This document shows positions 7,426 to 33,298 of a stretch of DNA of 33,398 bases, piece by piece. The notes beneath the pieces are model-generated. The model searched no databases. It was not told the origin of the DNA and worked only from the letters and a program-made list of their open reading frames with translations. The stretch comes from Acidobacteriota bacterium (GTDB lineage Bacteria > Acidobacteriota > UBA4820 > DSQY01): the NCBI GenBank assembly GCA_040752915.1, contig JBFMHB010000036.1, forward strand, positions 1 through 33,398, written 5' to 3'. Each line of letters starts with the position of its first letter. Position 1 is the first letter of the stretch. Position numbers and translations under genes: made by a program.

Positions 7426-9120
7426 ATGTCGTTTTCCACCTTCGGTCTCCACCCGAACCTCCTCCAGGCCCTGGGGGATCTGGAATTCACCCGACCCACC
7501 CCGATTCAGGAAAAGGCCCTCCCGCCCCTTCTCAAGGGACGGCACGTCCTGGCCGCCGCGGCCACGGGAAGCGGAAAGACGGCGGCCTTTCTCCTCCCGA
7601 TTCTCCAGCGGTTCCTGGACCGCCCGGGCAAGGGGACCCGCGCCCTCATCCTCGCACCGACCCGCGAGCTGGCGGCCCAGATCGCCGACCACCTTCAGGC
7701 CCTGGCCCGCCACACGCCGATCCGCGGGGTCGCCATTTACGGGGGCGTGGGCATGGAGCCCCAGATCAAGGCCCTCAAGAAAGGCGTGGAAGTCGTGATC
7801 GCCACGCCGGGACGGCTCCTGGATCACATGCAGTATCCGTACACGCGATTGGATGCGTTGGAGTTTCTGGTTCTCGACGAGGCGGACCGGATGCTGGACA
7901 TGGGTTTCCTGCCGGATGTCCGACGGATCCTCGACCGGCTTCCCAAGTCCAGGCAGACCATGCTCTTTTCAGCCACGCTTCCCCTGCCCATCGTGGAGCT
8001 GGCCAGCGAGATGCTGGCAAACCCGGTGGCCATCAACGTGGAGCAGAAATCCGAGCCCGCCGCGGGCATCAACCACTCGGCCTACCCCGTCCCCCACGAA
8101 TTGAAGTCCCACCTCCTGCTGGAAATCCTCAAGCTCCCGGAGGCCCGCAGCGTCCTCGCCTTCACCCGGACGAAGCACAGGGCCAACCGCCTTGGAGACT
8201 TCCTGGAGAAGCGCGGAGTTTCCTGCGCCCGGATCCACGGCGGCCGGAGCCAGTTTCAGAGGACCGAGGCCATGACGGGCTTCAAGGCGGGCAGGTATCA
8301 GGTCCTGGTGGCCACGGACATCGCCTCCCGCGGCATTGACGTGGAGGCCCTCGGGCTCGTGGTGAACTTCGACGTGCCCCATCTCCCCGAGGAGTACATC
8401 CACCGTGTGGGCCGCACCGCGAGGGCCCAGGCGACGGGAGAGGCCTTCACGCTCGTTTCGCCGCAGGAGGAGGGCGATTTCCGCGAAATCGAGCGGCACC
8501 TTGGATGGAAGATCCCCCGGCGAACGATGGAGGGCTTCGACTACACCCGGCGGCCCGAGGAAAAGTTCGAGGTCCCCCTGGCCGAGCGGATTGCCGCCAT
8601 CCGCAAGCGCAAAGCCGAGGAGAGGGCCCGGTCCAAGTCCAAAGCAGAGCGCCGGGCGGCGGCCGAGCGGACCCTCCGGAAGGGCTCCGCGGCGGACCGG
8701 GAGTCGGGATCCCACCGGGCCGGCGACGTTGCCTTCCGGCCCGAGGAGGGAAGCGCCGCCGCGAGGTCGGCCTCTCCCGGTAAAGGACGGGGGAAGCCCC
8801 CCCGCAGGTCGCACCCGGAAGGTCCCGGCGCCCGGGGAAAGGGACAGCCGCGCGGGTCGGGTGCACAACGACCCGGGTGGAAGCCGAGGCACGGTTCCGC
8901 TCCCCCGGCGCGTGAAACGGGGCCTTCGATGCCGGGACCGCTTGTCCTTGAATCGAGGGAACCGTCGAACCTTCCCGACACCTCGGGCACCCGACAGGAC
9001 ACCTTCATCTCCCACCGGGATTCTCTGGCGGGACGGAGCCACTGGGGCCAGACCTGGAGGAAGAAGTTCGGCGGCCGCCCGGCAGAGCACGTCCCCGAGG
9101 AAAGCCAGCCCGATTCCTGA
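7426..9120 (+). CDS. rhlE: DEAD-box RNA helicase, RhlE type
   Basis: An ATP-dependent RNA helicase of 564 residues. Both RecA-like domains are complete. Visible motifs are the Q-motif region PTPIQ (24-28), Walker A ATGSGKT (46-52), PTRELAAQ (78-85), TPGRLLD (127-133), DEAD (151-154), SAT (182-184), ATDIASRGID (296-305) and HRVGRTAR (326-333). From about residue 390 there is a low-complexity, Arg/Lys/Ser/Gly-rich tail of some 170 residues, common in RhlE-like proteins and likely to bind RNA or ribosomes. RhlE-type helicases act in ribosome assembly and RNA decay. The subfamily name rests on core similarity; another DEAD-box subgroup is possible. Confidence 0.9.
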   Translation: MSFSTFGLHPNLLQALGDLEFTRPTPIQEKALPPLLKGRHVLAAAATGSGKTAAFLLPILQRFLDRPGKGTRALILAPTRELAAQIADHLQALARHTPIRGVAIYGGVGMEPQIKALKKGVEVVIATPGRLLDHMQYPYTRLDALEFLVLDEADRMLDMGFLPDVRRILDRLPKSRQTMLFSATLPLPIVELASEMLANPVAINVEQKSEPAAGINHSAYPVPHELKSHLLLEILKLPEARSVLAFTRTKHRANRLGDFLEKRGVSCARIHGGRSQFQRTEAMTGFKAGRYQVLVATDIASRGIDVEALGLVVNFDVPHLPEEYIHRVGRTARAQATGEAFTLVSPQEEGDFREIERHLGWKIPRRTMEGFDYTRRPEEKFEVPLAERIAAIRKRKAEERARSKSKAERRAAAERTLRKGSAADRESGSHRAGDVAFRPEEGSAAARSASPGKGRGKPPRRSHPEGPGARGKGQPRGSGAQRPGWKPRHGSAPPARETGPSMPGPLVLESREPSNLPDTSGTRQDTFISHRDSLAGRSHWGQTWRKKFGGRPAEHVPEESQPDS

Positions 9121-28287: not shown

Positions 28288-29067
28288 CTAGGCCTTGAGG
28301 ACGAAACTCTCCAGGTCCCGGCAACGGCCCGTGTCGTCGTCGAGATCCGCGAACAGGCCCCCCAGCCTGGGATCGCCCTTGGCGACGTTGAGGATCCGGG
28401 GAATCCCCGTCAGGATGCGCTCGGTGGAGTCCGAAACCTCCATGCCGATGACCGAGGCATAAGGGCCGGTCATGCCAGCGTCCGTCAGATAGCCCGTCCC
28501 GCCCGGAAGGATCTCCGCATCCGCCGTGGGCACGTGGGTGTGGCTCCCTACCACCACGCTCGCCCGGCCGTCGAGGTAGAAGCCCATGGCCCGCTTCTCG
28601 CTGGTGGCCTCCGCGTGGATGTCCACGAGGATGCAGCGCTCCCCGGCGGGGAGGCCCGCCAGGATCTGGTCGGCCTTGCGAAAGGGACAATCCACCGGGG
28701 GCATCAGGACGCGCCCCTGCAGGTTCAGAACCCACAGGGCCCGACCGTCGGCGAGGCCGAGCCGGCAATGGCCGTGCCCCGGAACGGGCGGAGGGTAGTT
28801 GGCCGGGCGGAGAAGGTGCTCCTCGTCTCCGAGAAACCCCAGGGCCTCCTTCTTGTCCCAGATGTGATTTCCCGACGTGAGGACCTGGATGCCGAATCCC
28901 CTCAGCTCGTCGAAGACCTTTCGCGTGAGGCCGAAGCCTCCGGCGGCGTTCTCGCAGTTGGCCACCACCGCTTCCGGGGCGTACCGCTGGCGCAGGCCGG
29001 GCAGAAGGGCCCGGACCGCGTGCCGTCCCGGACGGCCCACGACGTCGCCGATGAAGAGGACTCTCAC
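28288..29067 (-). CDS. ymdB: YmdB-type metallophosphoesterase (TIGR00282)
   Basis: A 259-residue dinuclear-metal phosphodiesterase; the characterised homologue in Bacillus subtilis acts on cyclic nucleotides, including 2',3'-cAMP. All metal-binding blocks are present: GDVVG (Asp8), ENAAGGFG (Glu39, Asn40), GNHIWDKKE (Asn67, His68), VDIHAEATSEK and SHTHVPTAD. The TDAGMTGP segment is also a family signature. It lies 37 nt after rny, the usual rny-ymdB pairing, which fits a shared role in RNA turnover. Despite the name it is unrelated to the macro-domain YmdB of E. coli. Confidence 0.95.
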   Translation of the reverse strand: MRVLFIGDVVGRPGRHAVRALLPGLRQRYAPEAVVANCENAAGGFGLTRKVFDELRGFGIQVLTSGNHIWDKKEALGFLGDEEHLLRPANYPPPVPGHGHCRLGLADGRALWVLNLQGRVLMPPVDCPFRKADQILAGLPAGERCILVDIHAEATSEKRAMGFYLDGRASVVVGSHTHVPTADAEILPGGTGYLTDAGMTGPYASVIGMEVSDSTERILTGIPRILNVAKGDPRLGGLFADLDDDTGRCRDLESFVLKA

Positions 29068-29104: not shown

Positions 29105-30661
29105 TCACGTGGCGTACCCCACGTGGCGAGTCTCCCGAACGACCTGCACCTTCACCTGGCCCGTGAACCGAACCTCCCTCTCGATGCGCTCCGCCACGTC
29201 CTTGGCGAGCCAGAGGGTGTACTCGTCGTCCACCTGGGCCGCGTCCACGAGCACCAGGATCTCCCGGCCGGCCTTCATGGCGTAGGCCGTCCGGACCCCC
29301 TTGAAGCCCCTCACGAGGGCTTCGAGCTGCTCCATGTGCTCCACGTACCGCTCGAGGCCCTGCTTTTGCACGCCGGGCGCCGTCAGGGCGAGGTTCTCCG
29401 CCGCCTCCAGGAGATGGGCCTCGGGGAGCATGGACGGATTGTCGGGGTGGAGGTGGGCGATGCAGGCCGCCACCGCGGGAGATTCTCCGAATCGCTTGGC
29501 CAGCTGGGCGGCGACGAGGGTCGGGTGGGTGTCGTCGGTGTGCTCCTCGATGTGCCCCACTTCGTGGAGGATCCCGGCGCGCTTCACGACGTCCACGTTG
29601 AGCCCAAGGGCCTGGGCCATGTAGGCCGCGATTTTGGCCGTCTCGAGGGAGTGCTCGAGCAGGTTCTGGCCCTGGGACATCCTCAGCCGCATCCGTCCCA
29701 CGAGCTGGACGAGGTGCTCGTGCATGGCGGGGATTCCCAGGTGGAAGAGGGCGTCCCGCCCGTAACCGACGATGGACTCCTCGAACTTGTCCCGGCACTT
29801 CTCGTAGAACTCCTCGATGCGGGCCGGGTGGATCCGGCCGTCCTCCACGAGCGCCTCGAGGGTGGCCTTGGCCAGCTCCCTCCTCCAGGGGTTGTGGCAC
29901 GCCAGCATGATGATCTCGGGCGTGTCGTCCACGATCACGTCCACGCCCGTCACCCGCTCGAAGGCCCGGATGTTCCGCCCTTCCCGCCCGATGACGCGCC
30001 CTTTCATCTCCTCGTTGGGCAGGCGAACCACCGCCACGGCGCCCTCGAGGGGAAGGAAGGGGACGATCTTCTCCACGGCCTGGGTCGTGATGATCCGGGC
30101 CAGCGTCTTGGCCCGGTCGCGGGCGTTCTCCTCCACCTTCTTGATGATCCGGGTGGCGTCCTTCCGGGCGTCGTACTCCAGCTGGCGCATCAATTCGGCC
30201 TTGGCGTCCGTCGTGGAGAGCCCCGCGATCTCCTCGAGCTTGGACCGCTGGGACTTGAGAAGCGCCTCGGCCTCACGCTTCTCCTTGTCCACGATCTCCT
30301 CGCGCTGGGCGAGCTTCTTCTCCCGAGCCGCCAACTCGTTCTGGCGCTCCTTGATCTGGTTCTGCAGGCGGTCGTTCTGCTGCTCCCTCGCGGCCAGTTC
30401 GGACTCGAGCTTGGAGAGTTCCTTGCGCTTGGCCTTCCACTCTTTTTCGTGGGCCTGGTCCTTGGCCAGTAGCCGCTCCTTGGCGGCCAGTTCGGCGTCC
30501 GCGCGTATCTTCTCCGCCTCCCGCCTGGCTCGGCTCAGGATCAGGGAGGCTTCGGACTGGGCCTGCCGCACCTCGCTCCGGCGCTGCAGGACCACGATGC
30601 CTGCCACGATCCCGGCCCCAAGCAGAAAGGCCAGGAGGGAAAGGACGATGGTGAGCGTCAC
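29105..30661 (-). CDS. rny: Ribonuclease Y with altered HD motif
   Basis: RNase Y is a membrane-anchored endonuclease that starts mRNA decay. The 518-residue protein has an N-terminal membrane helix (about 5-25), a long coiled coil (about 30-150), a KH domain (GRVIGREGRNIRAFE, 221-235) and the HD domain with the C-terminal RNase Y block (GREILVLVDAAQVDDEY, QVVRETRHVGYA). Length and order match B. subtilis Rny (520). Unusually, the canonical HD pair reads HE (His366-Glu367, in ILHEVGHIEEH), and the later metal-ligand Asp reads Glu422 (AAENLA). His337 is kept. I checked the codons: GAA and GAG. Both changes are conservative, so activity may be retained with a modified site, but it could also be reduced. 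Confidence 0.93.
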   Translation of the reverse strand: MTLTIVLSLLAFLLGAGIVAGIVVLQRRSEVRQAQSEASLILSRARREAEKIRADAELAAKERLLAKDQAHEKEWKAKRKELSKLESELAAREQQNDRLQNQIKERQNELAAREKKLAQREEIVDKEKREAEALLKSQRSKLEEIAGLSTTDAKAELMRQLEYDARKDATRIIKKVEENARDRAKTLARIITTQAVEKIVPFLPLEGAVAVVRLPNEEMKGRVIGREGRNIRAFERVTGVDVIVDDTPEIIMLACHNPWRRELAKATLEALVEDGRIHPARIEEFYEKCRDKFEESIVGYGRDALFHLGIPAMHEHLVQLVGRMRLRMSQGQNLLEHSLETAKIAAYMAQALGLNVDVVKRAGILHEVGHIEEHTDDTHPTLVAAQLAKRFGESPAVAACIAHLHPDNPSMLPEAHLLEAAENLALTAPGVQKQGLERYVEHMEQLEALVRGFKGVRTAYAMKAGREILVLVDAAQVDDEYTLWLAKDVAERIEREVRFTGQVKVQVVRETRHVGYAT

Positions 30662-30704: not shown

Positions 30705-31004
30705 TCAGCGGAGTGCTTCCTCGAGGACCTCCGAGACCTGCTTGGAGGCGTCCTCCACCCGCTCCTCGTAGGCCTTTCTCGAAGCCTCGATGGCGAGCAG
30801 GCGGTCAGCGAGGTTTAGCGCGGCCAGGATGGCGATCTTGGTCATGTCCGTGAGCCGCGTCTCCTTCTGGATCTTGCGCATGGTCTCGTCGACCGTGCCG
30901 CCGACCCGTTGCGCCCTCTCCGGCGAACCGTGGACCCTGACCTGAAAGGTCTGGCCCAGGATGTCCAGTTCGACGAGGTGGTCCCCCTGGGGGTTCATGG
31001 TCAT
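30705..31004 (-). CDS. zapA: Cell division protein ZapA
   Basis: ZapA binds FtsZ and bundles protofilaments at the Z ring. The 99-residue protein has the family's N-terminal globular part (VELDILGQTFQVRVHGSPERAQRVGGTVDE), the MTKIAILAALNLADRLL helix and a C-terminal coiled coil. Length is typical. It overlaps the upstream coiled-coil gene by four bases (ATGA), implying coupling. rny follows after 43 bases. The order pheT, zapB-like, zapA, rny is a recognisable arrangement. Confidence 0.92.
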   Translation of the reverse strand: MTMNPQGDHLVELDILGQTFQVRVHGSPERAQRVGGTVDETMRKIQKETRLTDMTKIAILAALNLADRLLAIEASRKAYEERVEDASKQVSEVLEEALR

Positions 31005-31246
31005 ACCGCCTCGAACTCCTGGAGGAGTTCCTCGACGACCGCCTTCAGTTCCTGGCGCTCCTTCTCGAAGAACCGGACCTGCTGACGGAGCTTCTCGGCC
31101 TCGTCCTTCAGGGCCGCGTTCTCCTCCTGGAGCTTGCGGTTGGCGTCCCTGGACTCCCTCAACACCCGGGCCACTTCCCTGGCCCTCTCTTTGAGCCGGT
31201 CGAAGAGCTCTGGAGAAAGATCCTTCACGTCGCCTTCGAAAAGCAT
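31001..31246 (-). CDS. Small coiled-coil protein, ZapB-like
   Basis: An 81-residue protein almost entirely heptad-rich (LKDEAEKLRQQVRFFEKERQEL), with no transmembrane segment. It lies immediately before zapA and overlaps it, and nine bases after pheT. Size, coiled coil and location suggest a ZapB-type partner of ZapA, but coiled coils are easy to misassign and there is no signature motif to prove it. Confidence 0.75.
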   Translation of the reverse strand: MLFEGDVKDLSPELFDRLKERAREVARVLRESRDANRKLQEENAALKDEAEKLRQQVRFFEKERQELKAVVEELLQEFEAV

Positions 31247-31255
31247 GGCTGTCTC

Positions 31256-33298
31256 CTAGCGCAGGACGGCCCCGAAGGCCTCCTGCAGGGCGCCCGCCAC
31301 CCGGTCGGGCACGGGCGCGACATCCGCGTCGGACAGGGTCCGATCCATGGATTGGAAAACCAGCGAGAAGGTCACCGCCTTCCTCCCCGGTGGAATGCCC
31401 TTGCCCTCGTAGGCGTCCACGAAGCGCACCTGGGAGAGCAGCGGCAGGTCCAGGGCCAGGAGGAGGGACTCGACACGGCCCCAGGGGATCCCGGACTCCA
31501 GCAGGAAGGTGAAGTCCCTGATGACGGCCGGGAAGCGCGAGAAGGGGTGGAAGGACGGATCCGGAAGGGATTCCCCGAATCCGTCCAGATTCAGTTCCGC
31601 GGCGTGGAGCGCCCCGCTCTTGATCCCCACGGCCTCGAGGGCTTCACCAGAGAGCGAACCCAGACGCCCAACGGGACGGCCTTCGCAGAGGACGGTCAGG
31701 CGGAGGCCCGGATGGAAGGGCGCCCCCTCCTCCTCGACGAAGGAGACGCGGAAACCCAGCCTGTTCAGGACGGTCTCCACGCGGCCCTTCAGGTGCAGAA
31801 GACCGGGGGGCTCCGGCTCGCCCCACCGGACCGGCGGATCGTCCGCGTAGAGGACCGCCGCCGCCCTCGGCCGCTCCCGGAGGCCGTTTTCTCCCTCCAG
31901 GTAGACTCGGCCGACCTCGAAGAGGGCGAGACGCCTCTGGCCCCGGGCCCGGTTCCGGGCGACGGCGGCGCACAGGGGGCCCAGGAGGGTCGTCCTCAGG
32001 ACCGAGGCCTGGGGGCTGAGCGGATTGGCGAGCCCCCTGGCCGGTCCCTCCCCCACGGCGGCCTCCAGCGCGGGATCGGTCATGGACATGTGAACGACCT
32101 CGCGAAAACCGGCGGCGGAGAAGGCGTCCCTCAAGCGCTCCTCGAGCAATAGCTCGGCCGGGCGCCCGCCCACGGGATCCACCCTCTGGGGCAGATCGGA
32201 CGGCAGGTCCGAAAGCCCCCGAATCCGCACCACTTCCTCGATCAGATCCGCTTCGCGGGAGACGTCCACCCGGAAGGATGGCACGGAGACCTCCCAGACG
32301 ACGCCCGCGAGCTCATCGACCCTCTCCACGCCGAAGCCGAGGCACCGCAGAATCTCCTCGCAGCGCCTGGGGGGGACACGGATCCCCACGAGGGCCTCCA
32401 GGCGGGCGTGGCGCAGGCGGACCGGGGGACGAACGGGGGCCTGGGCGGCCACATCCACTCGTCCCTTCGCCAGCTTCCCCCCGCAGATTTCCAGGATCAA
32501 TCGGGCGCACCGGTCGAGGGCCGTCTCCGGCCCCCGCCAGTCCACGCCCCGCTCGAAGCGGTGGGAGGCGTCGGTGTGGAGGGCCATCCTCTTGCTCGTC
32601 CAGCGGACGTTGACGGGATCGAAAACGGCTCCCTCCAGAAGGACGTCCCGTGTAACCGGAGTCACCCCCGTGTCCTCCCCGCCCATGACGCCAGCGAGGG
32701 CCACGGGCCTCCTGGCGTCGGCGATCACGAGGTGGTCAACGCCGAGGGTTCTTTCCACGCCGTCCAGCGTCGTGATCTTTTCCCCTTCGACGGCCCGGCG
32801 AACCACGATGCGCCGCCCCTCCAGGCGGTCCAGGTCGAAGGCGTGGAGCGGGTGGCCGAGCTCCAGGAGCACGTAGTTCGTGGCGTCCACCACGGCGTTG
32901 ATGGGCCTCAAGCCGCACTGGAGGAGCCGCTTCTGCATCCACGGCGGGCTCTGCCCCACCCGGGCGCCCACGATCACGCGCGCCGCGTAGCGGGGGCACA
33001 GGTCCGGGGCCTCCACCGTGACCGAGGTCAAATCCTGGATGGGTGGACCTTCCTCAGGGCAGTCCGCCGGCGGAGGATTCAGGGGCCGCCCGAAGAGGAC
33101 CGACGCCTCGCGGGCCAAGCCGAAGGCGTTCATGCAGTCGGGCCGGTTGACCGTGATCCCGAACTCGCACACCGTCTCGCCTTCCGCCGAATCCATCCCC
33201 TCCACCTCGCTCCCGGAGAGCGTGAAGGCCTCGGCGGCCACGGCCGGGTCGCCGGGGAGGTCCACATATTCGCCGATCCAGCTCAGGGGGAATCGCAT
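31256..33298 (-). CDS. pheT: Phenylalanyl-tRNA synthetase beta subunit lacking the EMAP domain
   Basis: PheT forms the alpha2-beta2 enzyme that charges tRNA-Phe. The 680-residue protein shows the B1 start (MRFPLSWIGEYVDLPGD), the B3/B4 editing domain (RPINAVVDATNYVLLELGHPLHAFD), the B5 domain, the core domain and a C-terminal anticodon-binding FDX-ACB domain (FHPFSRFPAVIRDFTFLLE). Typical bacterial PheT is about 790-800 residues because an EMAP/OB-type tRNA-binding domain of about 110 residues sits between B1 and EITPNRPDC. Here SGSEVEGM passes almost directly to FGITVNRPDC, so that domain is absent. The start ATG lies seven bases after the pheS stop. Confidence 0.96.
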   Translation of the reverse strand: MRFPLSWIGEYVDLPGDPAVAAEAFTLSGSEVEGMDSAEGETVCEFGITVNRPDCMNAFGLAREASVLFGRPLNPPPADCPEEGPPIQDLTSVTVEAPDLCPRYAARVIVGARVGQSPPWMQKRLLQCGLRPINAVVDATNYVLLELGHPLHAFDLDRLEGRRIVVRRAVEGEKITTLDGVERTLGVDHLVIADARRPVALAGVMGGEDTGVTPVTRDVLLEGAVFDPVNVRWTSKRMALHTDASHRFERGVDWRGPETALDRCARLILEICGGKLAKGRVDVAAQAPVRPPVRLRHARLEALVGIRVPPRRCEEILRCLGFGVERVDELAGVVWEVSVPSFRVDVSREADLIEEVVRIRGLSDLPSDLPQRVDPVGGRPAELLLEERLRDAFSAAGFREVVHMSMTDPALEAAVGEGPARGLANPLSPQASVLRTTLLGPLCAAVARNRARGQRRLALFEVGRVYLEGENGLRERPRAAAVLYADDPPVRWGEPEPPGLLHLKGRVETVLNRLGFRVSFVEEEGAPFHPGLRLTVLCEGRPVGRLGSLSGEALEAVGIKSGALHAAELNLDGFGESLPDPSFHPFSRFPAVIRDFTFLLESGIPWGRVESLLLALDLPLLSQVRFVDAYEGKGIPPGRKAVTFSLVFQSMDRTLSDADVAPVPDRVAGALQEAFGAVLR

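Follow-up and report, generated by a model that had tools for sequence, protein, structure and literature searches.

The window, a stretch of 33,398 nucleotides from an Acidobacteriota bacterium, encodes a full-length RNase Y homologue, RnyB, that is probably a non-cutting partner or regulator of an intact RNase Y copy (RnyA) in the same genome. In many bacteria, RNase Y is one of the main enzymes that start mRNA decay. Alignments show that RnyB has lost the canonical catalytic residues, and that RnyA keeps its HD residues but has lost the basic residue usual in the GxxG loop of the KH domain. Judged from these sequence comparisons, the reading we favor, with somewhat more confidence than doubt, is that RnyB is a pseudoenzyme serving as the non-cleaving, RNA-capturing or regulatory subunit of a heteromer with RnyA. 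Catalytic inactivity, pairing of the two proteins and the direction of RnyB's effect are what we infer from the patterns described below.

Identity and gene neighborhood of rnyB

The rnyB reading frame opens with a GTG codon at 30661 and its stop codon ends at 29105 (Table 1). The RNase Y profile TIGR03319 matches residues 8–517, i.e., the full length of the protein, at 508.2 bits (cut-off 454.35), and Pfam RNase_Y_N and KH_1 identify an N-terminal transmembrane/coiled-coil region and a KH domain whose GxxG loop is present as GREG. The neighborhood is also that of an RNase Y gene, with ymdB adjacent and zapA and pheT nearby as in other Acidobacteriota. A PDB sequence search with the single window sequence found no match; a PDB fold search gave weak matches, none at E < 0.001, including KH proteins (Dim2p) and HD phosphohydrolases (PgpH, 3ccg).

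Table 1 Features of the rnyB region (positions within the window).
Feature	Coordinates	Strand	Basis or remark
rnyB, probable pseudo-RNase Y paralogue, 518 aa	29105..30661	-	ORF; TIGR03319; Pfam RNase_Y_N, KH_1, HD; motif alignment
rnyB layout: TM helix, coiled coil, KH, degenerate HD, C-terminal domain			
KH GxxG loop, G225-R226-E227-G228	29978..29989	-	alignment
His337, first HD-site His, kept	29651..29653	-	alignment
H366-E367-V-G-H370 in place of H-D-I-G-K	29552..29566	-	alignment
L404-H405 in place of the His-His pair	29447..29452	-	alignment
Glu422 in place of the final metal-ligand Asp	29396..29398	-	alignment
ymdB-like TIGR00282 metallophosphoesterase, downstream neighbor conserved with rny	28288..29067	-	252.8 bits, just below the 254.15 cut-off; synteny
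zapA, upstream neighbor conserved with rny	30705..31004	-	Pfam ZapA; synteny
ZapB-like short coiled coil	31001..31246	-	weak Pfam ZapB match below cut-off; adjoins zapA in relatives of the order too
pheT, upstream neighbor, marker of the ancestral rny locus	31256..33298	-	TIGR00472, 531 bits; synteny
DEAD-box RNA helicase, RhlE/CshA group	7426..9120	+	about 20 kb from rnyB; possible RNA-decay partner

Two RNase Y types in Acidobacteriota

The same genome (a draft assembly, 98% complete) carries a second RNase Y on contig C96, with canonical HDIGK, HHED and VCDA motifs and 34% identity to the window protein. A canonical type (A) and a window-like type (B) turn up again within the family and the order and, beyond these, in additional acidobacterial families; our sample comprised 48 copies of each from about 15 families. 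Of 35 genomes that are at least 90% complete and carry A, B or both, the two types occur together in 32; three contain B without A, and in none does A occur alone. This co-occurrence traces to few ancestral events rather than to many independent observations. The B-only genomes (G005, G112 and G310) are drafts of 260–570 contigs. Binning error does not explain the coexistence of A and B, since G066 carries the two on one contig of 6 Mb.

One further acidobacterial genome (G021, a single contig of 2.4 Mb) holds a pair of RNase Y copies that have diverged strongly; the first is A-like (HD...HH...AAN, with a GKEG loop) and the second sits at the pheT-zapA locus (HDIGK, LDRD, AH). The final Asp is lost in both of these copies (L082, cpy1; L085, cpy2), which is unusual, and their long branches make placement unsure.

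Active-site residues of the B clade

RNase Y catalysis is defined by the residues H...HD...HH...D, and in place of these the window protein has HE, LH and E. Alignment with canonical relatives, which read HDxGK, HH[G/E/D/F]D and AD at the corresponding columns, bears out the motifs picked from the DNA by an earlier sequence-only reading: HE at 366–367, His370, HLHPD and AAEN (Glu422). No alternative HD pair lies nearby that could be the real motif, and sequencing error is ruled out as the source of HE, which recurs in most gene copies from independent assemblies. HE is found in none of the 66 single-copy RNase Y proteins examined. That reading counted two changes, both Asp to Glu; the substitutions are as described, but the count is too low, since four canonical positions differ (367, 370, 404 and 422).

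Across the 48 B proteins the site is degraded in several ways. Asp is lost from position 367 in 47 of them (35 Glu, five Gly, four Ala, three Lys, one Asp) and likewise from position 422 (19 Glu, 16 Arg, nine Asn, two Cys, one Asp, one Lys). Lys370 is kept in none, and His404 is replaced in every copy (by Leu in 43, Met in three and Ala in two). His405 is retained in 29, and His337 gives way to Arg in 12 (Arg being the state of one B family) and to Leu in one. The canonical site, by comparison, is present in all 48 A proteins and all 66 single-copy proteins (26/26 and 40/40). We dropped an apparent loss of His380 throughout B, as 15 of the 48 still have His-Pro in this loop and the loss is partly an alignment shift. 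The B copy of one genome (G104, locus L109) combines HE and LH with an intact final Asp (MADK), and is possibly near an early stage of site loss.

The paired Asp-to-Glu changes had been interpreted as the adaptation of a working metal site. We consider it distinctly unlikely that the HE/E site is still catalytic, perhaps with another metal or with slower or altered cleavage. Glu can sometimes hold a metal, and the positions of the usual four HD ligands remain potential ligands in the window protein (H337, H366, E367 and E422), together with H405. Twelve species from three families still have this HHEHE arrangement, and part of the B clade may have kept it under selection as an ancestral state; it may be an early state of the clade, later broken down further elsewhere. 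However, in orthologues from this locus the residue at 367 varies without regard to that at 422, with Lys, Gly, Ala and Arg among the residues found, and the joint states of the two positions (Lys367 with Glu422; Glu367 with Arg, Asn or Cys422) reject matched covariation. Lys367 with Glu422 occurs even in a genus of the window's own family (G006 and G008), and the sister family has lost H405 while keeping HE and E422. The complete loss of His404 and Lys370 also argues against a working site, and copy A in the same genome already covers the catalytic role. These alignments do not fit an adapted catalytic site upheld over the whole B clade, though they leave some room for residual metal binding in the HHEHE species, this one among them.

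Selection and predicted fold

Despite its altered active site, rnyB is shown by codon comparisons to be under purifying selection, with the KH domain, coiled coil, transmembrane helix and C-terminal domain kept. Pairwise pN/pS for B within genera and families is 0.06–0.30 overall and 0.03–0.26 in the HD domain, which is thus still constrained, generally less than the HD domain of A; these values are rough, several dS being saturated. Constraint in most B pairs is highest, or close to highest, in the KH domain, and nearly all columns that are invariant in canonical KH domains are invariant in B too. An AlphaFold2 model built from 16 sequences gives confident KH and HD cores (pLDDT about 90) with poor global placement (pTM 0.43), and carries no information on metal or partners.

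The loss of active-site residues is what a decaying pseudogene would show, but it is highly improbable that rnyB is decaying or that it results from an error of assembly or binning. Full-length open frames occur in dozens of species, their low pN/pS and intact KH domain agree with the sequence-only reading that the changes are not random decay, the operon is conserved, and both copies stand on one contig in G066.

Origin of the two copies

In a tree computed without the catalytic columns, 45 B proteins form one clade (SH-aLRT 100) that falls among single-copy canonical acidobacterial RNase Y, and A forms a separate clade. A reduced tree again recovers A and B as one clade each, with support of 100. 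A sister grouping of A and B, as expected if a recent duplication of B had yielded A, is rejected by the AU test (p-AU 0.005).

Gene order points the same way. B occupies pheT-(zapB)-zapA-rny-ymdB; in G017, G039, G016 and G208 this place is held by an rny that is single-copy and canonical. A is found outside the pheT/zapA/ymdB locus, and in the family and order to which the window belongs it is flanked by a metallo-beta-lactamase-fold gene, an otherwise unassigned gene presumed to encode a radical SAM protein, and mqnE. These comparisons show, as far as phylogeny and synteny can tell, that it is B that occupies the ancestral rny locus. Tree and synteny together thus indicate that catalysis was lost from the resident copy and is kept by one of separate descent. 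Perhaps A arrived by transfer; it sits near Bacteriovoracaceae in the tree.

Reciprocal change in the KH loop

In KH domains, the GxxG loop touches the nucleic-acid backbone.(PMC7949032) The first variable residue of this loop (R226 in the window protein) is Arg in 46 of 46 B proteins and in 65 of 66 single-copy proteins, the remaining one having Lys. In A it is Arg in none of 44 proteins, the position being occupied by His, Ala, Thr, Gln, Tyr, Ser, Val or Ile. It is suggestive that each paralogue seems to have relaxed what the other keeps, a pattern that reflects few ancestral events and does not amount to statistical proof. The loss of one GxxG-loop Arg would presumably alter RNA binding.

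Proposed role of RnyB

These patterns suggest a division of labor between the two proteins. RnyB would be anchored in the membrane, bind RNA through its KH domain and join RnyA through the coiled coil and the C-terminal dimerization regions; it would supply RNA binding, anchoring or regulation while RnyA cuts, conceivably splitting the work as RNase J1 and J2 do. RNase Y dimerizes by its N-terminal part, and a C-terminal strand has been modeled within the dimer interface.(PMC9775385) Single HD-motif mutations almost abolish activity of the Bacillus subtilis enzyme, and overproduced H368A/D369A RNase Y is dominant negative and mimics RNase Y loss, an effect that its authors attributed to mixed oligomers or substrate competition.(PMC10303841) Because RnyB keeps the parts used in dimerization, we infer from this mutant behavior that it forms a heteromer with RnyA. 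The H368A/D369A protein resembles RnyB in joining an inactive HD domain to an intact KH domain, coil and C-terminus, and differs from it in being a laboratory mutant, whereas rnyB is a natural, conserved gene.

The same mutant lends itself to another interpretation, that RnyB is a trans-acting brake on RnyA, dominant-negative and competing for substrate, rather than a stimulating subunit: excess inactive RNase Y in B. subtilis does mimic loss of the enzyme. We regard a brake as unlikely, as the retention of B over many genera and the missing basic KH-loop residue of A suggest that A may depend on B instead of simply being inhibited by it.

Rather unlikely, too, is an independent RNA-binding or scaffold protein, one that anchors mRNA or degradosome partners at the membrane unpaired with RnyA. 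Such a protein would account for the invariant KH core and GREG loop and for the retained coiled coil and transmembrane helix, and the single RNase E/G and single RNase J of this genome could be its partners. The near-strict co-occurrence of B with A and the reciprocal KH-loop change in A, however, are better explained by joint work.

Relation to known ribonucleases

RnyB resembles RNase Y (Rny/YmdA, TIGR03319) in its full-length homology, domain order, transmembrane helix, KH domain, ymdB-adjacent locus and score above the family cut-off; it differs in having HE, Leu-His and a final Glu, in a genome with a second, canonical RNase Y. Since it passes the profile cut-off and lacks the defining catalytic residues, RnyB is accurately filed as a probably non-catalytic member of the RNase Y family. 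In the open-access papers searched, we found no description of such an RNase Y paralogue.

A parallel exists in the Firmicutes RNases J1 and J2, decay-nuclease paralogues of which one has a departed catalytic motif and weak activity and forms heteromers with the active one.(PMC4419217, PMC7864078) As with RnyA and RnyB, an active and a degenerate paralogue co-occur (in our data, in 32 of the 35 genomes at least 90% complete). The J proteins differ in having an unrelated, metallo-beta-lactamase fold, J2 keeps some activity, and their heteromers have been shown, whereas those of RnyA and RnyB are predicted.

Many B copies without the catalytic residues score above the equivalog cut-off of NCBIfam TIGR03319, so that annotation pipelines would name them ribonuclease Y. 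Annotation by a full-length profile thus attaches that name to a protein that is probably non-catalytic.

Biological meaning

Our data raise the possibility, which we offer tentatively and with more doubt than conviction, that in a large part of Acidobacteriota RNase Y is an obligate two-gene heteromer, in which the resident copy would have given up cleavage and would keep RNA capture (the GREG loop), and the separately derived copy would keep cleavage, its own RNA capture having relaxed. A natural pseudo-RNase Y throughout a clade, matched by a complementary loss in the active paralogue, would offer a direct way to separate the roles of the KH domain, the coiled coil and the HD domain.
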